From Terriglobia bacterium (GTDB lineage Bacteria > Acidobacteriota > Terriglobia > Acidiferrales > UBA7541): a DNA stretch of 37,970 nt. Of the stretch, positions 707 to 18,448 are shown one piece after another. The stretch is from contig JAIQEV010000057.1 in NCBI GenBank assembly GCA_020073585.1, positions 1 through 37,970 of the forward strand, in the 5' to 3' direction. The notes beneath the pieces are model-generated. The model did not search any database. It was not told the DNA's origin and was given only the letters and a program-made list of their open reading frames with translations. Numbering within the stretch: the first letter of the stretch is position 1; every line of letters starts with the position of its first letter. Position numbers and translations under genes: made by a program.

Positions 707-716
707 CGGGTTCCCC

Positions 717-893
717 ATGACCCTCACCCATCTGCACGGCATGCTGCTCTACGCGCTGGTCGTTTCGGTAGCCTTCGGATTCCTCAGCCGGCGGCGGCCG
801 CTGGAGCGCGTGAAGTACATCGCGTGGTCGCTCTTCCTGTTTCTGCTGGTGGGCATCGGTATCGGCTGGGCCATGTATCCCTTCTCAAAGTGA
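717..893 (+). CDS. 58-residue membrane protein of unknown function
   Basis: A short frame starting at ATG 717, ten bases after the stop of the previous gene. It encodes two hydrophobic helices (about residues 8-22 and 35-53) joined by the basic loop SRRRPLERVKY, a plausible two-pass membrane protein with a cytoplasmic loop. Close spacing and the same strand suggest it ends the peptidase/DUF6677 operon. No SD sequence is convincing. No known family is recognised. Confidence 0.6.
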   Translation: MTLTHLHGMLLYALVVSVAFGFLSRRRPLERVKYIAWSLFLFLLVGIGIGWAMYPFSK

Positions 894-954
894 GTCGCCG
901 CGGCAGCCGCGGGAACCAAGGAATTGCGCGTGGCGGCCTGTGTGGCGGCGCGAA

Positions 955-984
955 TTGACAGAAATTTTGCGCGGATGCTACAGT
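955..984 (+). promoter_or_regulatory. Candidate sigma-70 promoter of the tRNA-Thr gene
   Basis: A perfect -35 box TTGACA (955-960) and a weaker -10 box TACAGT (979-984) are separated by 18 bp. The predicted start falls about five bases before the mature tRNA. The remaining 894-954 stretch has no gene. Confidence 0.55.
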
Positions 985-995
985 GGATTGATTCA

Positions 996-1070
996 GCCGA
1001 GGTAGCTCAGTGGTAGAGCAGCCGATTCGTAATCGGCAGGTCCGGGGTTCAAATCCCCGCCTCGGCTCCA
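996..1070 (+). tRNA. tRNA-Thr, anticodon CGT
   Basis: A complete cloverleaf can be folded by eye. The acceptor stem is GCCGAGG pairing with CCTCGGC. The D arm is GCTC/GAGC and the anticodon stem GCCGA/TCGGC has loop TTCGTAA (anticodon CGT at 1028-1030, reading ACG). The T arm is CGGGG-TTCAAAT-CCCCG. The discriminator is T and the CCA end is encoded at 1068-1070. Its last 40 bases are duplicated at 14892-14931, marking it as the integration site of the adjoining island. The island supplies the present 3' end, so the tRNA stays functional. Confidence 0.95.
1031..1070 (+). repeat. Attachment-site repeat attL (40 bp, within the tRNA-Thr gene)
   Basis: These bases run from the anticodon loop to the CCA end and are identical to 14892-14931. 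The identity stops at both edges (T1030 versus C14891; C1071 versus G14932), as expected for crossover-site duplication rather than a duplicated tRNA gene. Confidence 0.88.
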
Positions 1071-1135
1071 CTCTTCTTGCAAGTCCCGCGATTTCAATTA
1101 GTTGACCTTTTCGTTTTCTGTAGCCACTGAAGTTT

Positions 1136-1159
1136 TGTGAACATTAGTGAACAAAACTT
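1136..1159 (+). repeat. Tandem GTGAACA motif near the left island end
   Basis: Two GTGAACA copies 11 bp apart, ending in GTGAACAAAACTT, lie within the 3' end of the integrase gene, 66 bp inside the left att repeat. A near copy is at 14791-14815, next to the right end. They may be integrase arm-type binding sites, or simply homologous integrase coding tails. Confidence 0.4.
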
Positions 1160-1978
1160 CAGCAATTTTGTCTGCCGCGCGCCGCTGTGCTTCAGGGATT
1201 GCGTGCGTGTAGACATTTAGGGTTGTCTCGAGATCCGAATGGCCAAGAAGTGCCTGAGCCGTTCGGATTGATCCGCCGACCTCAACAAGCTGCGTTGCAT
1301 ACGTATGCCTGAAGCTGTGCCACGAGATGTGGGGTAGCCCCAGCGCTTTGCAGGCAGGTCGCAGAGAGCGACGAAGCAGGTTCTTGGGATTGAGTGGTGT
1401 CTGTTTGCGGGTCGTGAAGACGAGGTCCTCAGGGCCTGCTTGTCGACGACAGGCAAACTGCGCCTGGAATGCCTCACGCACAGGTTGGCTGATCGGAATA
1501 TCCCGTCTGCTGCTCTTTGTTTTTGGCGAACCGAACTTGCCCTCTGAGACTGTCTCTCGCACTTGGATGACACCACGAACTAAATCGAGGTTCTTCCATC
1601 GCAGCGCTAGGATTTCACCGATTCTCATGCCCGTCAAAACTGCAACGAGCACAAGAGTACGGCAAGGCTCGGGAAGGGAAGTCAGCAGTAGCACAACTTG
1701 CTTCGGGTCCAGATATAGCCTCTCCGTTTTTGGCGCACGATCTCCGATGCGAATCCCTCTGGCTGCATTCTGTTCGAGAAGATTCCAATCGACGGCAGAC
1801 TGCAAGACTTTCGAGATTGCAGTCCGCATGCCGTGAACGCTTGAACCGGAAAAGCCGAGTTTTCGTTTTTCGGCGAGAAAGCATTGGACATCAACCCGCG
1901 TGAGGTCGCAAAGCCTCCTTGTGCCGAATGCGGGGAGAATGTGGCACCGGAGCTGAACATCGTAGTAGCGAGACGATC

Positions 1979-1982
1979 CGGA
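1979..1982 (+). repeat. Target-site duplication CGGA, left copy
   Basis: CGGA directly flanks the left IS end (TGTAATG...). The same four bases follow the right end at 3233-3236. Removing the IS plus one copy rejoins the two integrase parts in frame. Confidence 0.88.
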
Positions 1983-1995
1983 TGTAATGAACCCC

Positions 1996-2877
1996 TCAGA
2001 TTTGGACATGTGGGGCCTCGGAAAGTTGTATAGCTTGCCAAGCTAGGAACGCCTCGTGAGGCGTGCGGTTTCGTAGACTCTGGTGGGGCCGGTCGTGATT
2101 GTATTCGGCGATCCATTTTCCGATCGACGCCCGGGCCTCCTCCATGCTGCGGTACTCGTGAACCCAGACTTCTTCCTCCTTCAAGCTGCGATGAAACCGT
2201 TCGATGTAGCTGTTGCCTTCCGGATGATGATACGCCGTTCGGCGGTGTTTGATGCCCAACCGCGAAAGCGTTTCCAGGTAACGCGTCGAAGTGAACTGCG
2301 TTCCATTGTCCGTCGTCAACGTCAGCTCCGCCTCGCGGCTTCCCCTCGGCAAGCGCGCCAGTACCGACTGTTCGACGGCGTCGATGGCCTCTTCGCTCCG
2401 GCAGCGCAGCGAGAGATTCCACCCGGTGATTTCTCGCGTGCAGCAGTCGATCACGCTCACCAGGTATGCCCATCCCGCCGCCGGCCCCGCCCACACCTTG
2501 GTCATGTCCGACTGCCAGATCTGATTCGGCTCGGCGGCTTCCACGCGGCCCCACTCTTTTCTGCGCCGCGCTCGCAACCGCCGCGAAAGCACCAGCAGTC
2601 CGCGTTCCCGCATCACGCGCAACACACGTTTGTGATTCACCGCCAACCCTTCTTGCCGTTGCAACCGCAGCGTCACGCGACGATAACCAAACGTCGGCTT
2701 CTCCCCGCAGGCGGCGATGATTTGCTCGTCGTAGCTGCGGTCTGCTCGCGAGCAGCGAGCTTTTGGTCGATAGTAGAGGCGCGACCGGCTGATCATCAGC
2801 GTCGCGGCAACCAACGCCGCCTGGTATCCTTGCGTCAGCAGTTCGCGTGCGTGGGAGTGCGTCGCGCCGCAACTCAC
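1996..2877 (-). CDS. IS3-family transposase OrfB (DDE catalytic subunit)
   Basis: A 293-residue integrase-fold protein with an N-terminal HTH_21-type region (QIIAACGEKPTFGYRRVTL) and an rve domain. The DDE triad is visible: Asp in IWQSDMTKVW, Asp in LTTDNGTQFTSTRYLE, and Glu in SYIERFHRSLKEEEVW. GTG at 2877 overlaps the orfA stop (GTGA). The main product is expected to be the OrfAB fusion made by -1 frameshifting; OrfB alone may be made from the GTG. It catalyses strand cleavage and transfer at the IS ends. The stop lies 13 bases inside the IS edge. Confidence 0.93.
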   Translation of the reverse strand: MSCGATHSHARELLTQGYQAALVAATLMISRSRLYYRPKARCSRADRSYDEQIIAACGEKPTFGYRRVTLRLQRQEGLAVNHKRVLRVMRERGLLVLSRRLRARRRKEWGRVEAAEPNQIWQSDMTKVWAGPAAGWAYLVSVIDCCTREITGWNLSLRCRSEEAIDAVEQSVLARLPRGSREAELTLTTDNGTQFTSTRYLETLSRLGIKHRRTAYHHPEGNSYIERFHRSLKEEEVWVHEYRSMEEARASIGKWIAEYNHDRPHQSLRNRTPHEAFLAWQAIQLSEAPHVQI

Positions 2878-3164
2878 TCCCCCAGCACGTTTTTTAGGAT
2901 TTCGATCTCCAACTGCTTGCGGCCCAGCGCGCGTTCCAGTTGCTTCACGCGCTTGGACTGCTCTTCATCCGCGCCGCCCGCAGCGCTTCTCCCCCCAAGC
3001 GCTGCCTTTGCTCCCTGCTCAGCTTCATCTCTCCAGCGGTACCACAGGTTGGGAGCCACTCCGTGCTTGCGGCACGTCTCGGCGATGTTCCCGCTTTTCA
3101 ACCCTTCTTGCAGAATTTCCCACTTCTCTTCCGCACTGCGCTTTACCTGTTCTCTGCGACCCAT
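2874..3164 (-). CDS. IS3-family transposase OrfA (helix-turn-helix, leucine zipper)
   Basis: A 96-residue DNA-binding protein. Its N-terminal HTH_Tnp_1-type domain includes EILQEGLKSGNIAETCRKHG and LWYRWRDE. A C-terminal coiled coil (KRVKQLERALGRKQLEIEIL) serves multimerisation. Its 3' end carries the slippery sequence that feeds ribosomes into orfB. Alone it usually acts as a regulator of transposition by binding the IS ends. Confidence 0.92.
   Translation of the reverse strand: MGRREQVKRSAEEKWEILQEGLKSGNIAETCRKHGVAPNLWYRWRDEAEQGAKAALGGRSAAGGADEEQSKRVKQLERALGRKQLEIEILKNVLGE
2889..2895 (-). promoter_or_regulatory. Programmed -1 frameshift site A AAA AAC
   Basis: On the - strand the orfA codons CTA AAA AAC give the heptamer A AAA AAC in the X XXY YYZ phase, five codons before the orfA stop. 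A -1 slip enters the orfB frame and yields the OrfAB fusion. This is the classical IS3-family arrangement. Confidence 0.85.
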
Positions 3165-3232
3165 GTTGCCTCCTGATCGGAGGCCCCTATCCTACTCTTC
3201 GCAGGTGTCCAGTTTTAGAGGGGTTCATTACA

Positions 3233-3236
3233 CGGA
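3233..3236 (+). repeat. Target-site duplication CGGA, right copy
   Basis: Partner of 1979-1982. The four bases follow the right IS terminus (...CATTACA). Confidence 0.88.
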
Positions 3237-3599
3237 CCTTAGCGTCGGGATCACGCCAGGTTTCCATAGCTCGCTCACAAAGTGCTCCAGTGTCATCGTT
3301 GATTGTGGATGTTGGCGGCCTTGATTGATCGGTCTGAGCTTGGCTTGAAGGATATCCCTTGCTTCCTTCTTGCCCTTGATCTCGCTGGATGTCCCTAGCA
3401 CGGCGAAGCGAAGAACCCTCTTCACTGTGCCATTCGGTGCGATCACGTCTTCTCTCCAGCGTGCGGCCCAGACCTTTCGCTTCTTGCCGCGTCGAAGATA
3501 AATATGCCCTTCTTGGAAACGCGTGCGAATCGTAAACTCCTTTCCGATTCGCGCGCCCTTTTCCTCACCGTGCGCCAGTGTACTCCAAATCTCAAGCAT
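3233..3599 (-). pseudogene. Tyrosine integrase, N-terminal part (arm-binding and start of core-binding domain)
   Basis: Starting at ATG 3599, this codes for the arm-type DNA-binding domain (EGHIYLRRGKKRKVWAARWR, a beta-sheet fold rich in basic and aromatic residues). The first part of the SAM-like core-binding domain follows (TMTLEHFVSELWKPGV). The frame runs into the IS and stops at 3228. If the IS and one CGGA are deleted, codon 3237-3239 joins codon 1980-1982 in frame and restores a 415-residue integrase, the usual length. The start overlaps the stop of the upstream excisionase-like gene (ATGCTTGA, 3592-3599), so int and that gene were co-translated. Confidence 0.87.
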
Positions 3600-4011
3600 T
3601 TTCCCGGATTCCCAGCCGTTGACGCTGAATCCATGCAAGTACATCAGCTTCGTTGAAACGCCAGTACTTTCCAAGGCGGAATCCAGGTATGCGCTCTATG
3701 CATCGTTGGCGTGTGCGTCCGTACACCCAGGAGACAGGGACCTGCAACAACTCGGCTACTTCGTGGACATTAAGCAGTTGGCTTTCGCTTCTTTCTTTTC
3801 CTCCTGTGGCTGCGTTCGTGGGGCCGCTGAGGGCTAGGTCGAATGGTTCGACTGCCGGGGATGTAGAGGCCGACGATTGCTCCTCCCTATGCCCATTTAT
3901 TGATATCGTTCTGGACTGCAGAGGCGACGAAGTTACTACAAGGCGCGAGGCATGCTGTCTTGAGGACGCTGTATTCTCGCGCGTACCGAGTTGGGTTGGA
4001 CGGGGTTTCAT
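3592..4011 (-). CDS. Excisionase-like helix-turn-helix protein
   Basis: The last ~60 residues form a MerR/HTH_17-type domain (LLNVHEVAELLQVPVSWVYG, then RIPGFRLGKYWRFNEADVLAWI), as in excisionases encoded beside tyrosine integrases. It probably binds the att region and sets the direction of recombination. The first ~75 residues are Ser/Thr-rich and low in predicted structure; a shorter protein is possible, because ATG 4011 has no visible SD. The stop overlaps the integrase start by eight bases, which fits an xis-int unit. Confidence 0.72.
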   Translation of the reverse strand: MKPRPTQLGTRENTASSRQHASRLVVTSSPLQSRTISINGHREEQSSASTSPAVEPFDLALSGPTNAATGGKERSESQLLNVHEVAELLQVPVSWVYGRTRQRCIERIPGFRLGKYWRFNEADVLAWIQRQRLGIRENA

Positions 4012-4016
4012 GTTTG

Positions 4017-4310
4017 TTACGCAGTCTTGGAAAGGGCGTCTCCTTCGTTTTGTCCGGGATTGGAATCGTTTGTGTGTTGGACTGTCCAGCGATTGAGTCC
4101 TTCATTCCTTCTAAACAGGCGCTTAAGGGCCTCGCTGACGACGTAGGACGGGTTCGCTCGATGAACTCGGCGTACCTGTCCCGGTTGTGCCCGACTTCTT
4201 CCGCCAGGCGGACTTAAAGGGTTGTAGTTTTTAATTGTTTTGACGGTGCTTTCATAAGTGCTAAGTAGTTTTTCCTTCTCTCGTCGTCGGTGCTGCAATA
4301 CAGCCTGCAT
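4017..4310 (-). pseudogene. Ribbon-helix-helix-like protein, apparently frameshifted twice
   Basis: The open frame ends with NPSYVVSEALKRLFRRNEG (start of that segment near 4158), which looks like the second half of a small RHH (CopG/Arc-like) DNA-binding domain. The matching first half, VRLAEEVGHNRDRYAEFIE, lies immediately before it but in another frame (4213 down to 4157). Upstream, TVKTIKNYNPL returns to the first frame. Two compensating indels would explain this. The intact protein would have been a small regulator or antitoxin-like protein. The family reading is by eye only; an ATG at 4310 is the likeliest start. Confidence 0.4.
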
Positions 4311-4337
4311 TACAAATTGCTTGCTCCGACTCCCGCA

Positions 4338-4446
4338 CACGGGCAAAACACTGCCTCGAGTTGCTCGGGGCGGGCTGGAGCGACCGCCACGATTCCGGTG
4401 GCAACGAAGTGGGGTCGCTCCAGCCCAGCCGGGTGTTTTGCCCGTG
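4338..4446. repeat. Nested triple inverted repeat, 109 bp
   Basis: Three perfect stems lie inside one another. The outer stem is CACGGGCAAAACAC (4338-4351) with GTGTTTTGCCCGTG (4433-4446). The middle stem is GCTGGAGCGACC (4374-4385) with GGTCGCTCCAGC (4413-4424). The inner stem is GCCAC (4386-4390) with GTGGC (4398-4402). The bases between outer and middle stems do not pair. It could be a small non-autonomous element, a folded RNA, or a recombination or transfer site. No open frame uses it convincingly. Confidence 0.8.
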
Positions 4447-4465
4447 GTCAAAATCCACCGTCGCG

Positions 4466-4996
4466 TCATAGGCAACCTCTGTGTTCCGAAGAACTTCCAG
4501 GAATCTCGAGGTGACGCTGGAGGTCAAGGGATGGGTGATTACTATCTTTCATGTACCCGTCACCCGGTCCAGAATCCATGGCGCGCGGAGAGCCATGCCG
4601 ATGCAGGAGATACGTGTCGAAAAATATGCTTCGGTTCGGCGCGAGAGTGGACAGCTCCACTCGCAGCTCGTTGTCGCCAAGTCTGCCGAGACGCCAGGCG
4701 TGGAAGAGGGTGTCGAACCTGTCTCCGCGAAAGCGCTCCCGGGCCTCCTTCAGGAATTCAAAATCCTCGGTCACGGGGACAATGTACTGGTGGCTTTCCT
4801 ACTTCTTGCGGATTTGGAAGTAGCGCTGGATATCGCTGGAAACGTCGGTTTCAAGGGGCTGTTTTACCAGGGAGCGGAACTGCTCTTCGGCTCTGGGGAA
4901 ATAGGCCTGTCTTTCTGTGATGTAGAGAAAGCGGAAACGGTGGAGCTGCCGGAAGACCCGGGAGCCCCCAGTTGAGGGGGGTGCTTTATGAAATCC
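4466..4996 (-). pseudogene. Unrecognised protein, decayed (in-frame TAG, no start)
   Basis: One - strand frame reads as protein-like over about 175 codons. The upper part includes FRFLYITERQAYFPRAEEQF and ETDVSSDIQRYFQIRKK. A TAG follows at 4799-4801, then the frame continues as ESHQYIVPVTEDFEFLKEAR and FDTLFHAWRLGRLGDNELRV. Composition and helix pattern are similar on both sides of the stop, so the TAG probably replaces a sense codon. The frame is closed upstream by TAA (4997-4999) and has no good start. No family is recognised. Confidence 0.45.
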
Positions 4997-5114
4997 TTAT
5001 GACATCTTTGCGACTTTTTTACGCTTGACAGGTGATGCTTGGAGCCCGTGGGGATTTCTGCCAGGTGAACCGTGGACAAGGGCGGCCCCATCGAAAGAAA
5101 AGGATCAGAGGGCG

Positions 5115-5306
5115 ATGTGGATCTTCATAAGTCTCGTGAGCTTTGGTCTTGCGTTCATGCTGTACGCGTTGGTTCAGTTCTTCCGCGAGTCAAAGCGAAC
5201 GGATAGCACTCATCGGCAGGGTTCTAACTCGAAAATCCAAGGGACGCAGTCAGGGCGCTTGGTCACCATGATTCCGAAAGGCTCTCGCCAGCGTCGTGAG
5301 CCGTGA
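5115..5306 (+). CDS. 63-residue single-pass membrane protein
   Basis: ATG 5115 follows a purine-rich AGAGGGCG. Residues 1-22 form one hydrophobic helix (MWIFISLVSFGLAFMLYALV), followed by a basic, Ser/Gln-rich tail of about 40 residues. The stop lies 29 bases before the porin start, so it probably heads the kdp transcription unit. No known family is recognised. The stretch 4997-5114 before it should hold the kdp promoter, but I see no convincing boxes. Confidence 0.5.
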   Translation: MWIFISLVSFGLAFMLYALVQFFRESKRTDSTHRQGSNSKIQGTQSGRLVTMIPKGSRQRREP

Positions 5307-5335
5307 AGTGCACATCGTCAAATGGAGCTACGGTG

Positions 5336-6769
5336 ATGCGGAAAACCAGGACATTCGGATTACTCGCGGCTAGCATCATTTGGTCCGGAGCTGTGCGCGG
5401 GCAAACACAAGCTATACCTGCAGCGTCTTCGGGGAGCCAGGAGGCTCTGCAAAAACAGCTCGATGAGTTGCGGGGCCTCGTTATGCAGCTCTCCACTCGA
5501 ATCAACGGTCTCGAAGAGCAGTTGAAACAGAAACGCTCGCCAGAGGCGATTTCTGCTGCTGCGGAAACTGCGGAATTGAAGGTGGTGGTCCAGAGCGCTG
5601 GAGCGGGACCGGGCGCTCAGGCTGTGACTGCTGCGGAGCGCAGTTCCAACGATTTTCTCCAGGGGACTACGCTGAATCTCACCATCGACGGTTATTACGC
5701 CTACAATTTCAACCGGCCCGTGGGGCGCGTGAATCTGCTGCGCGCCTATGACGTCAGCAGCAACAGCTTCAGTTTGAATCAGGCGACGATGATTCTGGAG
5801 CGAGCGGCGGACCCGGCGGCCGGCAGGCGATTTGGAGCCCGGCTGGACCTGCAATATGGGCAAGCGACGGAGGCGTTGCAGGGAAGCGCCGCCAACGAAC
5901 CACGGCCTCAGGTCTACCGCCCTGTTTTTCAGGCTTACGGAACCTACGTGGCGCCCATCGGGAAGGGACTCACCATTGATTTTGGGAAGTTTGCCAGCGC
6001 GATGGGCTACGAAGGCAACTATACCAAGGATCAGTTCAACTACTCGCGAGCGTACTTCTTCAATTTCCTGCCGTTTTATCACATGGGCTTCCGAAATACG
6101 TATAGCGTCAACGACAAACTGACGCTGAGCTACTGGCTCATCAACGGAGTACAGCAAACGGAAGACTTCAATGGCTTCAAGTCGCACGTTGTTCAGGTGA
6201 TCGTCAAGCCCGCGAAAACCGTACAGTGGAACTTCATCTATCACGTCGGGAGGGAACAGCGGGACTTACAACCCGCGCTGAATCCAGGACTGCCTGCGCT
6301 CCCAACCCAGCCCGGCCTTTCCACGACGCCCATCGTGCCGGCGCCTGACGGCCGGTTCCACCTTCTGGATACCTATATCAGCTGGAATGCGTCGGCGAAG
6401 CTCACGCTCGCAGGCGAGGCGGATTACGTCATCAACCGGCAATTTAAAAATTCAGCGCCCGCGCATGTTTCCGGTGGTGCGGCGTACGCGCATTATCAGT
6501 TCACGCCGAAGTCGGCGGTCGCGGCTCGCGCCGAATATTTGTCGGATCGCGGCGGAATGTACAGTGGAGTCACCCAGGCCCTGAAAGAGGCGACGCTTAC
6601 CTACGAATACAAACTGGCCGACGGTTTCCTCACGCGATTCGAGTGGCGGCGGGATTTTTCGAACCAGCCATTCTTCCTGACAGAAACGCCCGGGCAACTA
6701 AAGAAGGAACAGAACACCGCGACCGTGGGCCTGGTCTGGTGGTGGGGACAGAAGCAGGGATCGTGGTAA
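5336..6769 (+). CDS. Outer-membrane beta-barrel porin (bbp2/OmpL-like)
   Basis: ATG 5336 is chosen over an earlier ATG at 5303 because GGAG lies eight bases upstream and a signal peptide follows (MRKTRTFGLLAASIIWSGAV, cut near VRG-QT). The 477-residue protein then has a coiled-coil stretch (EALQKQLDELRGLVMQLSTR), as in porins anchored to peptidoglycan. A long beta-rich region follows, with alternating aromatic strands (LTIDGYYAYNFNRPVG, KLTLSYWLINGVQQT) and a final strand ending TATVGLVWWWG. This matches the putative beta-barrel porin-2 family. Placed directly before kdpFABC, it may let K+ or other small solutes cross the outer membrane; that role is inferred. Confidence 0.8.
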   Translation: MRKTRTFGLLAASIIWSGAVRGQTQAIPAASSGSQEALQKQLDELRGLVMQLSTRINGLEEQLKQKRSPEAISAAAETAELKVVVQSAGAGPGAQAVTAAERSSNDFLQGTTLNLTIDGYYAYNFNRPVGRVNLLRAYDVSSNSFSLNQATMILERAADPAAGRRFGARLDLQYGQATEALQGSAANEPRPQVYRPVFQAYGTYVAPIGKGLTIDFGKFASAMGYEGNYTKDQFNYSRAYFFNFLPFYHMGFRNTYSVNDKLTLSYWLINGVQQTEDFNGFKSHVVQVIVKPAKTVQWNFIYHVGREQRDLQPALNPGLPALPTQPGLSTTPIVPAPDGRFHLLDTYISWNASAKLTLAGEADYVINRQFKNSAPAHVSGGAAYAHYQFTPKSAVAARAEYLSDRGGMYSGVTQALKEATLTYEYKLADGFLTRFEWRRDFSNQPFFLTETPGQLKKEQNTATVGLVWWWGQKQGSW

Positions 6770-6812
6770 GGCATCAGGTACGGAATGATTCAGCCGGAAG
6801 AGAGGAAGAATC

Positions 6813-6899
6813 ATGCTAGACGTCATTTTCATCGTGGCGACGGCGCTGTTTGTCGCTGTAGCCATTCTCTACGTTCGCGGGTGCGAACGGCTGAGGTAG
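6813..6899 (+). CDS. 28-residue membrane peptide upstream of kdpF
   Basis: ATG 6813 is preceded by GAGAGGAAGAATC. The product is a single hydrophobic helix (LDVIFIVATALFVAVAILY) ending in YVRGCERLR. It is ten bases before kdpF. I recall similar peptides ending in YVRGC(D/E)RL before kdpA in other phyla, but cannot check. It could be an accessory subunit of the Kdp complex. Confidence 0.6.
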   Translation: MLDVIFIVATALFVAVAILYVRGCERLR

Positions 6900-6909
6900 G
6901 AGCGAGCCA

Positions 6910-6999
6910 ATGAATACAGGGAATGCGGTGTTGCTGATCATTTGCGCCTTTCTCTTCGGGTATTTGCTCTACGCCCTCCTGAAGGCGGAGGAGTTCTGA
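6910..6999 (+). CDS. kdpF: KdpF, small subunit of the potassium-transporting ATPase
   Basis: A 29-residue single-helix protein ending [14 protein letters not shown]. It has the KdpF pattern: one transmembrane helix followed by YALL-x-xE-x-F, the family's usual 25-30 residues, and a position two bases before kdpA. KdpF stabilises the KdpABC complex in the inner membrane. GGAGG in its last codons is the SD for kdpA. Confidence 0.88.
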
Positions 7000-7001
7000 T
7001 C

Positions 7002-8774
7002 ATGACGGCAAATGGCTGGTTGCAAATTGTGTTTTATCTTCTAGTGATTTTTTTGCTCACCAAGCCGCTGGGCATTTACATGACGCGGGTATTCAGCCGG
7101 GAAAAGACGTTTCTCGATCCGGTCCTGCGGCCGGTCGAAAGAATCGTATACCGCCTGACCGGCGTGGACGAGAAGCATGAGATGCGCTGGACGGAGTACG
7201 CCATCGCCATGCTCCTGTTCAGCGGCGTCTCCATGGCGCTCCTGTATCTCATCGAGCGCACGCAGAAGTGGCTGCCGCTCAACCCGCAGAAATTTCCCAA
7301 TGTGGAGCCCGGGCTGGCGTTTGGCACGGCGGCTTCGTTCACGACCAATACGAACTGGCAGGCCTACAGCGGCGAGTCCACGATGAGCTATCTCACGCAG
7401 ATGGCGGGGCTGGCGTACCACAACTTCGCCTCCGCGGCTGTGGGCATCGTGCTGGCCATCGTGGTCATTCGCGGCATCGCACGCAAGGAAACGGACAAGC
7501 TCGGAAATTTCTGGATGGACACCACGCGGTGTCTGCTGTGGGTTCTGCTGCCCATTTGCATAGTGGGCTCGCTCGTGTTCGTGTCTCAGGGCGTCGTCCA
7601 GAATCTGAAGCCCTACACCACGGTGCAACTGATCGAACCGCAGACCGTGCAGGTGACCGGCGCGGACGGCAAGGCCACGACACAAACGGTGACGCAGCAG
7701 GTAATTGCCCAGGGCCCGGTGGCCTCGCAGGAGGCCATCAAGGAATTCGGCACGAATGGCGGCGGCTTTTTCAACGCCAACAGCGCGCACCCATTCGAAA
7801 ACCCCACGCCCCTCTCGAACTTTTTCCAGATCGTGCTGATTTTCGCGATTCCCTCGGGTCTCACCTACACCCTGGGCCGCATGACGGGTTCGCAGCGGCA
7901 TGGCTGGGCGGTGTGGGCCGCGATGGCGTTCTTGTTCTTTGCCGGGGTGACGACACTGTACTGGGCGGAGGCCAGAGGGAATCCACTCCTGGCCGGCACG
8001 GATCAGCGGGCAAGCGCGCTGCAATCCGGCGGAAACATGGAAGGGAAAGAGGTGCGCTTCGGGATTGCGAACTCCGCGCTGTTCGCGACGGTGACGACCG
8101 ACGCGAGCTGCGGCGCAGTGAACGGCATGCACGATTCGTTCACGCCACTTGGCGGCATGGTTCCGTTGATCAACATCATGCTGGGAGAGGTGGTGTTCGG
8201 CGGCGTCGGCGCCGGACTCTACGGCATTGTGGTGTTCGTGATCCTCGCGGTGTTCATCGCCGGACTGATGGTGGGCCGAACTCCGGAGTACCTGGGGAAG
8301 AAGATCGAGTCGTATGACGTGAAGATGGCCATGCTGGCGATTCTGGTTCTGACGTTTACCATTCTGGGCTTCTCGGCAGTCGCCGTGGTAAGGCCTTTTG
8401 GCACCTCGAGCATTTCGAATCCGGGACCGCACGGGCTGTCGCAGGTGCTCTACGCATACGTCTCGTCCGCCGGGAACAACGGCTCGGCGTTCGCCGGCCT
8501 GAACGCCAATACCATGTGGTACAACACCTCCACGGCCGCCGCCCAATTGCTCGGGCGGTTCTTCATGATCATTCCGGTGCTGGCGATTGCCGGAAGCCTA
8601 GCCAAAAAGAAAACTCTTCCGGAGTCGGCCGGGACATTCCCCGTAACAGGCGGCCTGTTCGCGAGCTTGCTCGTTTCCACGATTGTGATCGTGGGTGCGC
8701 TCACCTTTTTTCCGGCTCTGAGTCTGGGGCCGATTCTCGAACACCTGCTGATGCTCGCAGGAAAGTCTTTCTGA
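7002..8774 (+). CDS. kdpA: KdpA, potassium-translocating subunit of the Kdp ATPase
   Basis: The ATG at 7002 has GGAGG eight bases upstream; an earlier frame extension overlaps kdpF and is rejected. The 590-residue polytopic membrane protein carries the four selectivity-filter loops of the KdpA/SKT fold: [52 protein letters not shown] and [17 protein letters not shown]. It selects K+ at the periplasmic side and passes it toward KdpB. There is a periplasmic insertion rich in Val/Thr/Gln ([19 protein letters not shown]). Length is near the family norm. Seven bases separate its stop from kdpB. Confidence 0.97.
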
Positions 8775-8781
8775 GGTGTCT

Positions 8782-10830
8782 ATGGATCCCGTCGGTAAGA
8801 TCAGGAAAAAGTCGTTCGGAGACAGGAAGATTCTCGTTCGGGCAGTGGCGGACTCCTTTGGCAAGTTGGACCCCCGGACGATCATCAAGAACCCCGTTAT
8901 GTTCGTGGTCGAGGTGGGCGCGGTACTGACTACGGTCCAACTGGTGTGGAATGCCGTCCATCATGCGGGAGAGATCGGATTCGGCCTGCAGATTAGCCTG
9001 TGGCTGTGGTTTACGGTGCTGTTCGCGAATTTCGCGGAAGCCATGGCGGAGGGGCGCGGCAAGGCGCAGGCGGATACCCTGCGCAAAGCGCGCGCGGAGA
9101 CGGAAGCGCGGCGTCTGCGGCCGGATGGTTCCACGGAGGTGGTGGTGAGTTCGGCGCTGCGCGCGGGAGACGAGGTTCTGGTGTGCGCCGGAGAATTCAT
9201 TCCGGGAGACGGGGAGGTAATCGAGGGCGTGGCCTCGGTGGACGAATCCGCGATTACCGGGGAGTCCGCGCCGGTGATCCGCGAATCCGGGGGAGACCGC
9301 TCGGCGGTTACCGGGGGCACGCGGGTGCTCTCGGATGAGATCAAGGTGCGCATCACTTCGAATCCCGGGGAGACGTTCCTCGACCGCATGATCCATCTTG
9401 TCGAGGGCGCATCCCGGCAGAAGACACCCAACGAGATCGCGCTCAATATCCTTCTGGCGGGGTTGACCATCATCTTCCTGCTGGCCGTGGTGACCCTGCA
9501 GCCGTTTGCCATCTATGCCGGGGCGCCGCAGAGCATCTTTGTCCTGGTTTCTCTGCTGGTCTGTCTGATTCCGACGACGATCGGCGGGCTGCTCTCCGCG
9601 ATTGGCATCGCGGGCATGGACCGGCTGATTCAGAGAAATGTCATCGCGATGTCCGGACGCGCCGTCGAGGCGTCGGGAGACGTGGACGTACTTCTGCTGG
9701 ATAAAACCGGGACGATAACGCTGGGCAACCGTCAGGCGACGGCGTTGCACACTTGCCCGAATGTCACGGAGGTAGAGCTGGCCAGCGCGGCGCAACTGGC
9801 GTCCTTGGCGGATGAAACACCGGAGGGGCGTTCCATTGTGGTGCTGGTCAAGGAAAAATACGGGCTGCGCGGCCGGGAGCTGGCGTCGCACAGTCCCACG
9901 TTCATTCCCTTTTCGGCGCAGACGCGCATGTCCGGCGTAGACCTGGACGTGCACGAAATTCGCAAAGGAGCGCCGGAAGCCATTGCGAAATACGCGCGGG
10001 AGGAGGGCCAGGAGGTGCCCGCCGAGATCCTGGAGATCGTCAAGGAAGTCTCCAATGCCGGGGGGACTCCGCTGCTGGTGGCACAGAACCGCCGGGTGCT
10101 GGGGGCCATCGCGCTGACGGATGTGGTTAAAGGCGGGATGCGCGAACGATTCGATCATCTGCGGGCCATGGGCATTCGGACGATGATGATCACCGGGGAC
10201 AATCCGTTAACCGCGGCGGCGATCGCCCGGGAAGCCGGAGTGGACGATTTTCTCGCGGAAGCCAAGCCGGAAGACAAGATGGCGCTCATTCGCAAAGAGC
10301 AAGCGAAGGGAAAACTGGTGGCCATGACCGGGGACGGCACCAACGACGCTCCGGCGCTGGCGCAGGCCGACGTGGGAGTGGCCATGAATACCGGGACGCA
10401 GGCCGCGAAAGAGGCCGGGAACATGGTGGACCTGGACTCCAACCCGACGAAGCTGATCGAAATCGTGGAAATCGGCAAGCAACTCCTGATTACGCGCGGG
10501 GCGCTGACCACGTTTTCGGTGGCCAATGACGTGGCCAAGTACTTCGCCATTATTCCCGCGATGTTCGCCGGGGCATTCCCGGTGCTGGGAATCCTGAACA
10601 TCATGCGGCTGCGCACTCCGGAGTCGGCCATTCTGTCCGCGGTTATCTTCAACGCGCTGATCATCATTGCGCTGATTCCGCTGGCGCTGCGCGGGGTGCG
10701 CTACCGGCCGGTGGGGGCGGCGGCGCTGCTGCGCCGCAATCTGCTGCTGTATGGCGCCGGGGGAATCATCGCCCCGTTCATCGGGATCAAGCTCATCGAT
10801 GTGCTGCTCACGTACATCGGGATTGTCTGA
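8782..10830 (+). CDS. kdpB: KdpB, P-type ATPase subunit of the Kdp complex
   Basis: ATG 8782 has GAGG five bases upstream. With this start the phosphorylated Asp of [11 protein letters not shown] is residue 307, the same number as in E. coli KdpB, which supports the choice over GTG 8776. The 682-residue protein shows the TGES actuator motif ([15 protein letters not shown]), the KdpB-type [12 protein letters not shown] region, [14 protein letters not shown] and the [17 protein letters not shown] hinge. The C-terminal helices include [15 protein letters not shown]. It hydrolyses ATP to drive K+ uptake into the cytoplasm. The gene is complete. Confidence 0.97.
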
Positions 10831-10839
10831 GAGGAACGT

Positions 10840-11412
10840 ATGAAGAAGAACCTGCTCATCGCCGTGTGGTTCACGCTGGTGACCACCGTGATCTTCGGTG
10901 TCCTGTACCCGCTGGGAATCACCGGTCTCGCCCAGCTTTTTTTTCGCGACCGGGCGAACGGACAACTGGTCGAAAAGAGCGGCCAACTCGTAGGCTCGGG
11001 AATCATCGGCCAGGCCTTCAGCGGCCCCGGCTACTTTCATCCGCGGCCGTCCTCAGCCGGAACCGGATATGATCCCACGGCCAGCGGCGGCTCGAATCTG
11101 AGTCCCACGAACAAGACGCTGCTGGAGCGGGTGAAAGGCGACGTGCAAAAGCTGCAAAGCGAGAATGCCAGCGCGGCGATTCCGGTGGACCTGGTGACCA
11201 CATCGGGATCCGGTCTGGACCCGGACATCTCTCCCGCGGCCGCGGAGTTCCAGATTGCGCGCGTGGCCCGGGCCCGCGGTGTGCAAGAGGATGAGGTGCG
11301 GGGTTTCGTGAAGAAGTACACCAAAGACCGCGATCTCGGATTTCTTGGTGAGCCGCGCGTCAATGTGCTGGAGCTGAATCTCGAGCTGGATCGGAGCCAT
11401 CCGCTGCGCTAA
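10840..11412 (+). CDS. kdpC: KdpC, periplasmic subunit of the Kdp ATPase
   Basis: A 190-residue protein nine bases after kdpB with AGAGGA upstream. It has one N-terminal transmembrane helix (LIAVWFTLVTTVIFGVLYPL). A periplasmic domain follows with the KdpC signatures GSGIIGQAFSGPGYFHPRPS, PVDLVTTSGSGLDPDISP and VNVLELNLELD. KdpC is needed for assembly and high-affinity K+ binding. It ends 12 bases from the convergent stop of kdpE, with no room for a separate terminator. Confidence 0.96.
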   Translation: MKKNLLIAVWFTLVTTVIFGVLYPLGITGLAQLFFRDRANGQLVEKSGQLVGSGIIGQAFSGPGYFHPRPSSAGTGYDPTASGGSNLSPTNKTLLERVKGDVQKLQSENASAAIPVDLVTTSGSGLDPDISPAAAEFQIARVARARGVQEDEVRGFVKKYTKDRDLGFLGEPRVNVLELNLELDRSHPLR

Positions 11413-11424
11413 GGGGCCTTGCGG

Positions 11425-12135
11425 TCAACGGCGAGTTTTTGCGGAGGCGGCCCGGGGGAATTCGAAGCGGTAGCCGACCCAGGGTTCGGTGCAAATATAG
11501 CGAGGGTGGCGGGGATCCGGCTCGATTTTCTTGCGAAGCTGATTGATGAACACGCGAAGGTATTCGGTTTCCTCTCCGTAGTCCGGTCCCCAGACGGCTT
11601 GCAGCAAAGTGCGGTGCGAAACGGGCTTGCCCGGATTGGCGGCAAGCTGCCGCAGCAGGCCAAATTCCTTGGGTGTCAGGCGGACCGGCCGGCCCTGGAC
11701 GAGGACCTTGCGGCTCTCGAAATCAACGTGAAGATCGGGCGAATCGAGCGGAGCCATCAGCTCGGCGGCAGAGGTCCGGCGGAGGGCGGCGCGGATGCGG
11801 GCGAGAAGCTCCTCGATCCCGAAAGGCTTCACGACATAGTCGTCGGCTCCGGCGTCGAGCGCCTGCACTATGTCCTTTTCCGCATTGCGGACCGTGAGGA
11901 TGATGATGGGGACATCGGAGCGTTCGCGGATTTCCCGGCAGGCCGCCAGCCCGCCCATTCCGGGCATATTCACGTCGAGGAGCACCAGATCGGGCTGCTC
12001 GCTTCCGAGCATTTCCAGGGCTTCTTCGCCGCTGCGCGCTTCCTTGATGGTGTAACCCTGGCTCGTCAGGGTGGTGCGCATCACGCGGCGAATCTGCGGC
12101 TCGTCGTCCACCACCAGAATGTTCGCGGAGCTCAT
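11425..12135 (-). CDS. kdpE: KdpE-type response regulator
   Basis: An OmpR/PhoB-family regulator of 236 residues. The receiver domain has acidic residues DD (10-11), the phosphorylated Asp54 in LVLLDVNMPGMGG, Thr in IIILTVRNAEKD and Lys in YVVKPFGIEELL. The winged-helix domain occupies about residues 130-228 (RLTPKEFGLLRQLAANPGKP; YLRVFINQLRKKIE). Its start overlaps the stop of the histidine kinase gene by four bases, so the pair is an operon. It should activate the kdp structural genes under K+ limitation, reading across the convergent junction. Confidence 0.94.
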   Translation of the reverse strand: MSSANILVVDDEPQIRRVMRTTLTSQGYTIKEARSGEEALEMLGSEQPDLVLLDVNMPGMGGLAACREIRERSDVPIIILTVRNAEKDIVQALDAGADDYVVKPFGIEELLARIRAALRRTSAAELMAPLDSPDLHVDFESRKVLVQGRPVRLTPKEFGLLRQLAANPGKPVSHRTLLQAVWGPDYGEETEYLRVFINQLRKKIEPDPRHPRYICTEPWVGYRFEFPRAASAKTRR

Positions 12136-13592
12136 TGCCGCCTGCTCTGGCCGCGCTCGACGGGCAGGGTGAAGGAGAACACGGAGCCGTGTCCCAACTG
12201 GCTGACGACGCTGATGGCGCCGCCATGGGCTTCCACGATGGCCTTCGCGATGGGCAGGCCCATCCCCGTTCCGTGCACGCGGTAGCGCTGGTCTTTGCCA
12301 CGGTAAAACTTGTCGAAGATCAGGCCGAGCTCTATCTCTTCGATTCCGGGCCCGCGGTCGGCGACACTGGTCAGGACAAAGTTGCCGTTGGCCTCCGCAG
12401 TGATGGTGATGGGAAGATCGGGCGGCGAATAGTTATGGGCGTTCGACAGCAGTTGGACCAGAATCTGCTTCGCGCTGTTCAGGTCCGCGCGCACGGCAGG
12501 GAGGTTCTCCGGCAGTTGCACCTGCACGAGCCGGTTGCCGAGCAAACCCTTGCACTGTTCGAGAGCGGCGGAGACCAGCTCGGAAATGGAGTGGGGTTGC
12601 AAGTCCAGCTTAAGTTCCCCCGCCTCCAGGCGGGCCATCTCGGCCGCTTCGCCAATCAAGGTATTCAGGCGGTTGGTCTCTTCATCGATGATCGTGAGCA
12701 GTTCCGCGCGGTGCTGCGCATCCAGGCGGGAGTCCGAGAGCAGGCTGGTCACCGAAGCCTTGATGGAAGTCAGAGGAGTCCGGAAGTCGTGGGTAATGGA
12801 GTCCAGCAAGGCCGACTTCAAGCGCTCTCCCTCGCGGGAGGCTTCGGTCTTGCCGAGTTGCTCGATGGCCCGCGCCCTCTCGATGGCCACGGCGATGAGT
12901 GTGCCCAGCGCTTCCAGGGACTGCCGGGAAAGGATTTGGCCGGAAATCCCCAGACAGCCGATGACGCGCACCCCCAGACGGACGGGGACGAAACACAGGC
13001 TTTGCGCTTCATCCACCTGCAACTCTTCGCGGGCCACCACGGCTTTCAGCTTCTCCGCGTCCAGTTGAGGAATCAGCAAGCCCGAGCGATATACCTTTTG
13101 CTTTTCCGTCAGGAACAGGGCGGCGGCGCCCACTTCGAAGGAATCCACGACCTGGCGCGGGATGGCATTCATGAGTTCAATGACGTTTCCGGCGCTGAGC
13201 AAGTGCTGGCTGAATTCGTAGAGCTTTTCGATCTCGCGCCGGCGGCGGTCGGCTTCCTCGGCCTGGTCCCGGGCCCTGGAGGAAAGATGGCTGCCGATGA
13301 CGGCGGTGACCAGAAAGGCAAACAGGGCCACCCAGTTCTGCGGGTCGGTAATCGTGAGCGTCAGGACGGGAGGCAAGAAGAAGAAGTTGAAGGCGAAGAC
13401 CGCCGCCAGAGACATCACCACGGAAACCAGGATGCCCCAAACGGTGGAGACTGCTAAAATAGCCAAGAGAAAGATAAGCGCGACGGTCGTCGCGTTAACG
13501 TGAATGGTCCTGTAGCAGAGGAAGGTGATCGCTGCCACGGTCCCCAGGGCGACGATCAAACCGGGAAGACGGCGGGTAAGGAAACCGCGCAT
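12132..13592 (-). CDS. kdpD: KdpD histidine-kinase half (DUF4118-GAF-HisKA-HATPase)
   Basis: A 486-residue sensor kinase equal to the C-terminal half of classical KdpD. The four-helix DUF4118 membrane domain is about residues 8-102 (VALIFLLAILAVSTVWGILV; FAFNFFFLPPVLTLTI). Then come a GAF-like domain (about 125-245), the phospho-acceptor His268 in SITHDFRTPLTSIKAS, the N box QLLSNAHNYSPPD, and DRGPGIEE and GTGMGLPIAKAIVEAHGG. The N-terminal KdpD/USP domains are absent here and lie on the divergent gene 50 bp away. On the - strand TACAAT (13604-13599) is six bases before ATG and there is no SD, so it may be leaderless. Confidence 0.92.
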   Translation of the reverse strand: MRGFLTRRLPGLIVALGTVAAITFLCYRTIHVNATTVALIFLLAILAVSTVWGILVSVVMSLAAVFAFNFFFLPPVLTLTITDPQNWVALFAFLVTAVIGSHLSSRARDQAEEADRRRREIEKLYEFSQHLLSAGNVIELMNAIPRQVVDSFEVGAAALFLTEKQKVYRSGLLIPQLDAEKLKAVVAREELQVDEAQSLCFVPVRLGVRVIGCLGISGQILSRQSLEALGTLIAVAIERARAIEQLGKTEASREGERLKSALLDSITHDFRTPLTSIKASVTSLLSDSRLDAQHRAELLTIIDEETNRLNTLIGEAAEMARLEAGELKLDLQPHSISELVSAALEQCKGLLGNRLVQVQLPENLPAVRADLNSAKQILVQLLSNAHNYSPPDLPITITAEANGNFVLTSVADRGPGIEEIELGLIFDKFYRGKDQRYRVHGTGMGLPIAKAIVEAHGGAISVVSQLGHGSVFSFTLPVERGQSRRQ

Positions 13593-13642
13593 GGCTACAT
13601 TGTAACTTAGCTTTTGCGTGTTCCGCCGGCGAGAAGAGAGTT

Positions 13643-14767
13643 ATGCCCAAGACACCGGAGCAGTGGCTGGAAGTGGCGTCGCCGCCGAAGAAGGTGCGCG
13701 GCAGCTTCAAGGTTTTTTTGGGGTATGCCCCCGGCGTGGGCAAGACGTTCACGATGCTGAGCGAGGCGATTCGCCGCCACACCCGGGGCGAAGATGTTGT
13801 GGTGGGAGTTGTGGAAACGCACGGCCGCAAGGCCATCGGGGAACTGGCCGCGCAACTGGTTACCATCCCGCGCAAGAAAATCGAATACAAAGGCACCCTC
13901 TTCGAGGAGATGGACACCGATGCCATCCTCAGCCGGAAGCCGCACGTCGTCGTTGTGGATGAATTGGCGCACACCAATGTTCCGGGCAGCAAACACCGCA
14001 AGCGGTACGAGGACGTGCTGGAGATCATCGCGGCGGGAATCGACGTTCTTTCGACCGTCAATATTCAGCATCTGGAAAACATCGCCCCCACGGTGGGAGC
14101 GATTACCGGAATCAAGGTACGGGAGACCGTGCCGGACTGGGTGGTGCAGTCGGCGGAAGAAGCGGTGATGGTGGACCTGACGCCGGAAGCGCTGCAGAAC
14201 CGCATGAAACGCGGCGATGTTTATGCCACGGAGAAAGTGGATCAAGCGCTCAGGAATTTTTTCCGGCGCGGCAACCTGATCGCTCTCCGCGAGCTGGCCT
14301 TGCGGCAAGTGGCCGAGCAGGTGGACCGCACTCTTGAAACGTACATGGAGCAGAAGGAGATTCAGGAGACCTGGCCCGTCCGGGAACGAATTGCCGTGTG
14401 TATCAGCCCGCACCCGAGAACCCAATACCTGATCGCGCGGGCGGCACGCATGGCCCGGCGCATCGACGCGGAGCTTTATGCCGTGTATGTGGACCTTGGC
14501 CATGATGCGGACGAGGAAGATCAGAAGACGCTGGAAGCCAATGTGCAGTTTGCGGTGAGCTTGGGCGCCACCATGGTGCGCCTGAAAGGCGACAACGTGG
14601 CCGATCCGGTTGCGGCTTTCGCGCGCGATAAGCACATCACCCAAGTGATCTTTGGCAGGTCCGCAGTCGACGGCTGGAGGAAATTCCTGTACATGAACGC
14701 CATCAATCGTTTTCTCCGCCAAGCTCCCGCCGTGGACGTCCACATCGTCACGCAAGAACCCGATTGA
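13643..14767 (+). CDS. kdpD: KdpD N-terminal sensor half (KdpD/Walker domain plus USP domain), stand-alone
   Basis: A 374-residue soluble protein equal to the cytoplasmic N-terminal part of KdpD. Residues ~20-230 are the KdpD domain, with Walker A GYAPGVGKTFTML (27-39), Walker B-like HVVVVDELAHTNVPGS and the family block STVNIQHLENIAPTVGAITG. From about 250 a universal-stress-protein domain follows (RIAVCISPHPRTQYLIARAA; ITQVIFGRSAVDGWR). It has no transmembrane or kinase part. It presumably binds nucleotide or c-di-AMP and signals to the separate kinase encoded divergently. AGAAGAGAG precedes ATG 13643. Stand-alone KdpD N-termini are known in cyanobacteria; the divergent pairing is unusual. 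Confidence 0.93.
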   Translation: MPKTPEQWLEVASPPKKVRGSFKVFLGYAPGVGKTFTMLSEAIRRHTRGEDVVVGVVETHGRKAIGELAAQLVTIPRKKIEYKGTLFEEMDTDAILSRKPHVVVVDELAHTNVPGSKHRKRYEDVLEIIAAGIDVLSTVNIQHLENIAPTVGAITGIKVRETVPDWVVQSAEEAVMVDLTPEALQNRMKRGDVYATEKVDQALRNFFRRGNLIALRELALRQVAEQVDRTLETYMEQKEIQETWPVRERIAVCISPHPRTQYLIARAARMARRIDAELYAVYVDLGHDADEEDQKTLEANVQFAVSLGATMVRLKGDNVADPVAAFARDKHITQVIFGRSAVDGWRKFLYMNAINRFLRQAPAVDVHIVTQEPD

Positions 14768-14790
14768 GAATGGGGTTCACCCCAACGAGT

Positions 14791-14815
14791 TGTGAACAAC
14801 TTGTGAACAAAACTT
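14791..14815 (+). repeat. Tandem GTGAACA motif near the right island end
   Basis: GTGAACAA and GTGAACAAAACTT are 10 bp apart, 77 bp inside the right att repeat. This closely copies 1136-1159 at the left end. Nothing else is recognised in 14768-14891 except a small TGGGG-TTCA-CCCCA hairpin at 14771-14784. Confidence 0.4.
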
Positions 14816-14891
14816 GCCGAATACCATGCAGAACCATACGGTGTGGTGAGGAATAAAGCGCGCGAATCCAACAGAATGGTATCGGTGGAGC

Positions 14892-14931
14892 AATCGGCAG
14901 GTCCGGGGTTCAAATCCCCGCCTCGGCTCCA
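14892..14931 (+). repeat. Attachment-site repeat attR (40 bp, detached tRNA-Thr 3' end)
   Basis: Identical to 1031-1070. The upstream bases do not continue the tRNA (no D arm or anticodon 5' strand), so this is a displaced 3' end and not a second tRNA gene. It marks the right edge of the kdp island. Confidence 0.88.
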
Positions 14932-15053
14932 GAATTTTCTAACCTACTTCCTTTCAAGCAGGTAACTTGTCTATTTTCTATGCCCGTTGAAAACTCGGGA
15001 ACACCAGGGAACGCCAAGCCAGCCGCCTTCCCTACCGCACGCTGGCGTTCTTC
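14910..15053 (-). pseudogene. C-terminal tail of a second tRNA-associated integrase
   Basis: On the - strand, 47 codons read EERQRAVGKAAGLAFPGVPE, then FSTGIENRQVT, and run on into the att repeat, stopping at 14910-14912. The pattern matches the end of the island integrase at 1098 (EAQRRAADKIAEVLFTNV, then TSVATENEKVN): E-x-QR, Ala-rich helix, F-x-x-V, and x-EN near the end. TAA (15054-15056) closes the frame upstream and the catalytic part is gone. Orientation and distance to the tRNA-like sequence are the same as for the first integrase. It is probably the remnant of an earlier element at this tRNA. Confidence 0.6.
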
Positions 15054-15074
15054 TTAGCGGCCTTCGCTGGCCGG

Positions 15075-16268: not shown

Positions 16269-16442
16269 CATTTCACTCCCAAAGGGAGATGCACCCGAAT
16301 CAGTGCGGAGACGCCGCACCCAGATAATTCCCGTACCCCGCAAATAGCGAACTGGCGTGAGCGGAGAGTTTTGCACCGGCGGGAGTGAGAGAAAACCCAC
16401 TCTTGCCGGACGCATGCACTCCGGTCAGGTCAAACTCTGCCG

Positions 16443-18269: not shown

Positions 18270-18340
18270 GATGTCGCCTCCGGCCCCGTAGTATACCGCC
18301 ACCCGGAAAATTCCTGCGCTGCGCAGCAAAGCATGCGCAC

Positions 18341-18404: not shown

Positions 18405-18448
18405 CTGCAATTCATTTCCGCCGAAGCCGGCGGCGATTACCCGTCCAT

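Follow-up and report, generated by a model that had tools for sequence, protein, structure and literature searches.

The question raised by this locus is how a complete set of genes for the Kdp potassium-uptake system came to stand beside a tRNA-Thr(CGT) gene on the 37,970-nucleotide contig JAIQEV010000057.1 of the Terriglobia bacterium assembly GCA_020073585.1, the whole of which is here called the window. A preliminary description, made from the sequence alone, had proposed that kdp is carried there on a tRNA genomic island as site-specific mobile cargo. A 13.9-kb genomic island in the tRNA-Thr(CGT) gene of this soil Acidobacteria-group bacterium is confirmed, and very probably a non-conjugative integrative island brought kdp, drawn from a shared pool, into the tRNA gene with its integrase later being split by an insertion sequence (IS). 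This reading draws on the anatomy of the island, an empty site in a relative, the IS insertion and the distances between kdp copies. In what follows G000 is the genome of the window and G028 its closest relative, these, G029 and the other G numbers being genomes of one genus (36 in the set), while C numbers (C52, C111, C7, C31, C28, C9) denote contigs of G000 and L numbers loci fetched from relatives or databases.

The tRNA target and the ends of the island

The island is bounded by two copies of the 3′ half of the tRNA, with arm-type repeats lying inside both ends:

996–1070, + strand: intact tRNA-Thr(CGT), the integration target (ARAGORN; Rfam tRNA in own genome)
1031–1070, + strand: attL, the tRNA half from the anticodon loop to the 3′ end (exact 40-bp direct repeat)
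1135–1154, + strand: left arm-type repeat pair (TTGTGAACAT, TAGTGAACAA) within the 3′ end of the integrase gene int (search with TTGTGAACAA at no more than one mismatch)
14790–14810, + strand: right arm-type repeat pair (TTGTGAACAA twice, 11-bp lag; same pattern search)
14892–14931, + strand: attR, the displaced tRNA 3′ half (exact 40-bp direct repeat)

The two exact repeats of the tRNA 3′ end had been reported in the preliminary description and stand as given, the other three direct-repeat families found by a direct-repeat search within positions 1–18000 measuring 19–22 nucleotides (nt) only. No further exact copy of the 40-bp repeat was found in G000, which has four additional matches at 73–82% identity. 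At no more than one mismatch TTGTGAACAA occurs at four sites in the window (1135, 1145, 14790 and 14801), two inside each island end and none elsewhere. Under the lambda paradigm arm-type integrase sites are expected at such positions, and the right pair starts 23 bp past the kdpD stop codon, which places kdp inside the element.

If the island is an insertion, as the preliminary description held, a relative should retain the site without it, and G028 (rpoB 99.5% identical to that of G000) has the tRNA with no island. In its locus L065, positions 566–1622 match window 3–1070 (89%) and positions 1583–1690 match window 14892–14999 (84%), with the two matches overlapping solely in the 40-bp repeat and the flanks colinear on either side, and no match to island positions 1071–14891 was found within the 19.9-kb L065 stretch. 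A 51-bp match of window 1040–1089 to L065 4167–4211 (78%) takes in the first 19 bases of the island; in G028 it is a decayed tRNA-Thr 3′ end, located where synteny resumes. The locus therefore has the features of a tRNA-targeted island, namely an intact tRNA and a displaced fragment as end repeats, an integrase inside near one end (here split by an IS) and an empty site in a relative.

That an assembly or binning artefact joined a tRNA island to a kdp contig is hardly credible. The assembly is a draft one and its contig C52 does break inside a kdpA gene, with the first 2,119 bp equal to G028 and the remainder at ~95%, but in the window the arm-type sites of the two ends match each other, with the right pair just past kdpD, and both flanks are colinear with G028 and the cargo with G029 without a break.

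On the insertion reading, the attachment site of the incoming island would have recombined with the half of tRNA-Thr(CGT) that runs from the anticodon loop to the 3′ end, through a phage-type tyrosine integrase that presumably acted at the tRNA with an adjacent excisionase-like helper. Recombination would have restored the tRNA at the left and left the displaced 40-bp half at the right, delivering ~9.8 kb of cargo (leader, porin, kdpFABC, kdpE and split kdpD) predicted to confer high-affinity potassium uptake controlled by a K+ sensor. The kdp island seems to have entered between the tRNA and an older island already present there, after which an IS3-family element would have split the integrase and the island probably become fixed. 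The cargo would have come from a pool common to related species and not by descent, the transfer presumably running from that pool into the island.

The Kdp cargo

A porin, small membrane open reading frames (ORFs), kdpFABC, kdpE and both halves of kdpD had been placed between the repeats in the preliminary description, and Pfam matches, or for the 28-amino-acid (aa) ORF the sequence, bear this out:

4984–5306, + strand: cargo leader with a 63-aa small ORF (5115–5306), where the 9.83 kb of colinearity with the kdp locus of G029 begin
5303–6769, + strand: BBP2 beta-barrel porin (Pfam, 5e-72)
6813–6899, + strand: small membrane ORF, 28 aa (sequence; no Pfam match)
6910–6999, + strand: kdpF (Pfam Potass_KdpF, 21.5 bits; cut-off 21.2)
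7002–8774, + strand: kdpA (Pfam KdpA, 2e-243)
8776–10830, + strand: kdpB, P-type ATPase (Pfam E1-E2_ATPase, Hydrolase)
10840–11412, + strand: kdpC (Pfam KdpC, 8e-73)
11425–12135, − strand: kdpE response regulator (Pfam Response_reg, Trans_reg_C)
12132–13592, − strand: kdpD C-half, DUF4118-HisKA-HATPase (Pfam)
13643–14767, + strand: kdpD N-half, KdpD-Usp, divergent from the C-half (Pfam KdpD, 3e-92; Usp)

The set is complete, with KdpF, KdpA, KdpB and KdpC together with KdpD and KdpE, and every reading frame is open. KdpB shows 95% aa identity to its counterparts in both G028 and G029. The leader is also found in G028 and on C52, while the porin adjoins kdp in G029 and has no match in the G028 and C52 stretches. 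Division of KdpD over two genes is the norm in these bacteria and does not distinguish the island. The frame of the KdpD N-half is shorter than 450 aa at 18/18 genus loci, at 38/38 of the loci L191–L229 with a complete frame and at 35/38 distant loci, one of these 35 being a frame glitch of 2 aa.

Evidence for the transfer of kdp

KdpA is present in 29 of the 36 genus genomes, G000 included, and in the relatives examined it is located elsewhere. To sample the tRNA-Thr site itself 29 loci were fetched from 27 other genus genomes, with the tRNA intact in 21 and only a flank or a contig end in the remainder; no match to KdpA, KdpB, KdpC or KdpD was found in any of the 29, and weak response-regulator matches to KdpE (30–35%) occur in two. 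Relatives carrying kdp beside this tRNA without attachment repeats, which would have spoken against the preliminary description, are thus absent from these 29 loci. In G028 the kdp operon lies elsewhere in the genome between 33-bp direct repeats that correspond to the 3′ part of tRNA-Pro(TGG), and the G029 locus follows the window cargo from 4984 to 14810 in unbroken colinearity, at 90% identity.

Differences at pooled four-fold sites were compared between six kdp genes and a core set of four genes (rpoB and three genes left of tRNA-Thr). For kdp they are 0.239 (G000–G028), 0.243 (G000–G029) and 0.251 (G028–G029), and for the core 0.117, 0.374 and 0.409 in the same order, with Fisher P values for kdp against core of 6e-13, 2e-6 and 2e-8. 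Because the kdp distances are equal and the core distances unequal by about threefold, the three kdp copies did not follow their genomes and their history is non-vertical. The preliminary description had proposed a comparison of kdp and core phylogenies, and of this the distances argue for transfer and the topology does not. Trees of kdpA, kdpB and the KdpD N-half were rejected as proof of transfer, as they group G000, G028 and G029 and rpoB does likewise, so that only the distances discriminate.

These distances bear directly on the alternative, an improbable one, that the bacterium inherited kdp vertically and the genes were relocated within its genome to a tRNA island already there. The frequency of kdp in the genus (29/36) accords with it, as does the identity of the kdp DNA of G000 and G028 (91.4%), which falls within the 89–96% of the other compared stretches of at least 400 bases. 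However, the four-fold kdp distance between G000 and G028 is double the distance given by the four core genes, the island kdp has the porin as in G029 and not as in the porin-less C52 and G028 stretches, and C52 has a separate kdpA start at the position orthologous to G028, which is identical to G028 over 2,119 bp and 95% identical to the island copy.

Returning to acquisition of kdp by insertion at the tRNA, several points weigh against it. The chance mean is 1.2 TTGTGAACAA-like sites and 4/100 shuffles give four, and because the number of sites is weak by itself the arm-type argument is one of placement, with two inside each end. The preliminary description had expected a shift in composition at the boundaries; the guanine plus cytosine content does differ across the island, modestly, with 54–57% in int, the excisionase-like gene (xis), the stretch after xis and the porin, 61–62% in kdp and 65% in the flanks. 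The rpoB tree groups G000, G028 and G029 as the kdp trees do, with a Shimodaira–Hasegawa-like approximate likelihood ratio (SH-aLRT) support of 89, and the core distances rest on four genes, of which rpoB of G029 covers just 1,449 bases (in the rpoB alignment the rows of G005 and G029 are short, with that of G029 filling 38% of the columns). The window is one contig of a draft assembly of 113 contigs with an estimated contamination of 3.34%. Finally, no relaxase or secretion gene that would account for transfer is among the island ORFs scanned (see below).

The second kdpA start stands at the end of C52, at the position orthologous to G028 and without porin as in G028, and this stub hints at a second kdp locus in G000. 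Positions 1–2119 of C52 (L114), which take in the kdpA start and a 3′ fragment of tRNA-Pro, match G028 at 100% and are followed by sequence at ~95%, a pattern that means either that sequence was recently exchanged and the contig is broken, or that the contig is chimeric. Fragments of tRNA-Pro are also found on contigs C111 (two) and C7; C111 holds the sequence that adjoins the end of kdpD in G028, yet continues without kdp. The kdp operons of the genus seem mosaic at four loci (L094, L095, L096 and L097), where kdpA is 88–92% identical to the window, and kdpE and kdpD are 58–72% identical or without a good match in the stretch. In G008 a 23-nt 5′ piece of tRNA-Pro(TGG) (L111, 13917–13939) stands directly after kdpC, in the place expected for kdpE and kdpD.

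The split integrase and the mobility of the island

A tyrosine integrase and an excisionase-like gene near the tRNA had been recognised in the preliminary description and are upheld by Pfam; that the integrase is split by an IS had gone unnoticed, as had the arm-type repeats and the third attachment-site copy described below (18357–18404). The genes at the left end are:

1098–1982, − strand: tyrosine integrase, C-terminal catalytic part (Pfam Phage_integrase, 6e-32; the ORF extends to 2009 inside the IS)
1983–3232, − strand: IS3-family insertion sequence splitting int (15-bp perfect terminal inverted repeats; Pfam rve and HTH_Tnp_1)
3233–3695, − strand: tyrosine integrase, N-terminal part severed by the IS (genus-integrase hidden Markov model (HMM), E 4.8e-29 for the open frame 3231–3695)
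3592–4011, − strand: excisionase-like HTH protein, 139 aa (Pfam HTH_17, 6e-11)

The hallmarks of IS3 elements are orfA and orfB with an rve domain, TG..CA inverted repeats and a short target duplication. All are present here, with orfA at 2874–3164, orfB at 1996–2877, inverted repeats at 1983–1997 and 3218–3232, and a 4-bp target duplication (CGGA) at 1979–1982 and 3233–3236. The N-terminal part of the integrase has no Pfam match, and was recognised with an HMM built from 29 genus integrases, which included the window's own C-terminal part and excluded its N-terminal part; the C-terminal part (1101–2042) scores 9e-124 with this HMM but belongs to the model input. Relatives of the integrase occur in 29 of the 36 genus genomes, G000 included, several of them adjoining tRNAs by their coordinates (e.g., on C28 and C9), and the four best matches in other genomes are open frames of 451–466 aa. 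In the ~1 kb after the excisionase-like gene six ORFs were scanned and none matched a Pfam family.

Because the IS3 element splits the integrase, the island is probably a fossil or fixed in place, barring the action of another integrase at its ends. Of the proposal that kdp is site-specific mobile cargo, its place as cargo of a tRNA island holds, in view of the empty site, the arm sites and the distances, and present mobility does not: the island has probably been immobilised. It is unlikely that the island still moves through a related integrase of the same genome acting in trans. The ends look intact and G000 holds four matches to the integrase family, but one of these is the window's own C-terminal part, its own integrase being split, and recognition of the arm sites by the other three is doubtful because they match at 61% across roughly one third of the query or at 28–29%. 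A Pfam scan of 23 island ORFs, which covered a minority of the overlapping and antisense ORFs, found no relaxase or type IV secretion genes, and the island does not qualify as an integrative and conjugative element (ICE).

Right ends and the linkage of kdp to tRNA genes

The right ends of the kdp loci in the window and in G028 are alike. Both have a repeat pair at an 11-bp lag, TTGTGAACAA twice in the window and ACTTGGGTCCAA twice in G028, 24–26 nt from the first base of the kdpD stop codon, and the distance from the last kdpD codon to the tRNA 3′ half is 128 nt in the window (Thr(CGT)) and 131 nt in G028 (Pro(TGG)). G029 has a weaker pair (9/12), and no tRNA fragment was found at its right end with an incomplete library of 73 tRNAs. 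From these three sequences it may tentatively be proposed, as one possibility, that the porin–kdp unit travels with its own right attachment end and is re-targeted between tRNA genes. If so, small islands of one lineage would have carried kdp over the long term, with the integrases changing their tRNA target and the cargo staying constant. Comparison of the paired right ends from two species opens a route to studying how island integrases change their target.

Linkage of kdp to tRNA genes as a lineage-wide rule was considered and rejected as unproven for the family of the window, although it may hold for the group L199–L229. In favour of it, six intact tRNAs stand no more than 500 bp from the kdp cluster in 39 GTDB loci (L191–L229), where the tRNA density of G000 predicts 0.375. 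Of the 17 flank tRNAs in these loci 15 point their 3′ end at kdp, and 4/17, all tRNA-Met, resemble one shared site. In the genus an intact tRNA stands no more than 250 bp away at two of 28 loci (G015 and G007; window and L106 excluded), where 0.14 would be expected (P 0.009). Against it, all six GTDB cases fall in L199–L229 (6/31), whose complete loci differ in gene order, with none in L191–L198 (0/8). The order in the complete loci of L199–L229 is kdpD-C, kdpD-N, kdpE ... kdpA, and five of their six near tRNAs (Lys, Asn, Leu-TAG, Val, Thr-CGT) have the 3′ end toward kdp. A further 51 loci were fetched and 10 of them set aside as duplicates; no tRNA was found within 1 kb at the 31 that come from other genera of the family of the window, nor at 10 more genus loci. 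With ~0.5 tRNAs expected in these 48.6 kb at the plain tRNA density, this absence is modest evidence. In 40 distant kdp loci there was no tRNA enrichment.

At 21 other kdp-adjacent tRNAs no same-strand match of at least 18/22 to the tRNA 3′ end was found in stretches of up to ~21 kb. The distant locus L248 has a 24-nt tRNA-Lys 3′ fragment beside tRNA-Lys, upstream of kdp and not spanning it. No synteny beyond the tRNA itself was found between the G015 kdp/tRNA-Pro locus and the tRNA-Pro locus of G000 (C31). Matches to the integrase HMM near other kdp loci number 1/29 in the genus and 1/40 and 0/40 in further loci, against 2/18 controls and 6/29 tRNA-Thr sites; kdp is not generally beside integrases.

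Relation to known elements

The island resembles the islands catalogued by Islander in having an intact tRNA, a displaced 3′ fragment in the same orientation, a nearby tyrosine integrase and a tandem arrangement, and differs in that its integrase is interrupted by an IS and no integrase gene was found for the older tandem island (PMC4383910). The preliminary description had taken kdp on such an element to be unusual in kind, which does not hold given the precedents of the Acidithiobacillus caldus ICE.1, ACME and Tn4371-like elements. In A. caldus ICEAcaTY.1/ICEAcaSM.1 carry kdpABCE and belong to a set of elements bordered by direct repeats in which tRNA genes are generally involved, with excision of ICE-1 demonstrated by polymerase chain reaction (PMC3826726). 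The window island is like them in having kdp on an integrative element with tRNA-associated direct repeats; they are listed as ICEs of a non-acidobacterial acidophile, most with conjugation genes, whereas the island has none in the ORFs scanned and a broken integrase (PMC3826726).

The arginine catabolic mobile elements (ACME) IV and V of staphylococci carry a kdp operon, and with elements of the staphylococcal cassette chromosome mec (SCCmec) type they share kdp as cargo of a site-specific chromosomal element; those are inserted in orfX and have ccr genes, and the island is inserted in a tRNA with a tyrosine integrase (PMC7029136). Tn4371-like ICEs with kdpFABC-like genes, described in Pseudomonas aeruginosa PA7 and Thioalkalivibrio, are likewise integrative elements that hold kdpFABC among their accessory cargo, but are conjugative, with no tRNA target mentioned in the material used, and the island is non-conjugative (PMC2789088). 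In Leptospirillum, kdp with a BBP2 porin downstream has been proposed to be horizontally acquired, a neighbourhood that the porin and kdp of the window resemble (PMC7231039). A single strain of Synechocystis is described as having two kdp operons (PMC4060947).

The ccr genes encode serine recombinases. Among the literature matches listed (titles and abstract beginnings, subscription journals mostly outside the coverage) there was no kdp tRNA island in Acidobacteria. With kdp on tRNA-targeted elements already published, the window island is an additional, probably immobilised, example. It is a clear case beyond the well-studied groups of potassium scavenging being exchanged among soil bacteria by site-specific insertion, with an empty site, arm sites and a probable sequence of events in which the kdp island followed the old island and the IS came last, and implies that the presence or absence of kdp in these organisms is not simply readable as a lineage trait.

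A probable older island at the same tRNA

Beyond attR lie the following features:

14932–18356: older tandem segment with an FMN-dependent dehydrogenase (15075–16415, − strand) and an amidase (ORF 16443–18410, − strand) (Pfam)
18357–18404, + strand: decayed third copy of the tRNA-Thr 3′ half, an old attR (35/48 identities to attR)

The third copy scores 35/48 against a best of 29 among 60 shuffled 10-kb sequences. The first 68 bp past attR are common to G028, window 15000–18397 has no match to the G028 locus, where different sequence occupies the corresponding place, and synteny with G028 picks up again at 18398. The segment 14932–18356, in which no integrase gene was found, is interpreted as an earlier island in this tRNA or as what is left of one. 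Integrase HMM matches occur in six of the 29 tRNA-Thr-site loci of relatives, all six within ~0.5 kb of the tRNA, and in two of 18 control loci of other G000 or G028 sequence, both beside other tRNAs. This fits with tRNA genes, tRNA-Thr(CGT) included, being repeated targets of integrases, the two proportions not being clearly different. In G024 (L074, 7365–7403 and 15888–15962) and G020 (L080, 4338–4412 and 18528–18554) there are tRNA-Thr(CGT) islands of seemingly opposite polarity, in which a 5′ fragment remains and the intact tRNA is ~8.5 or 14 kb off with an integrase match nearby.

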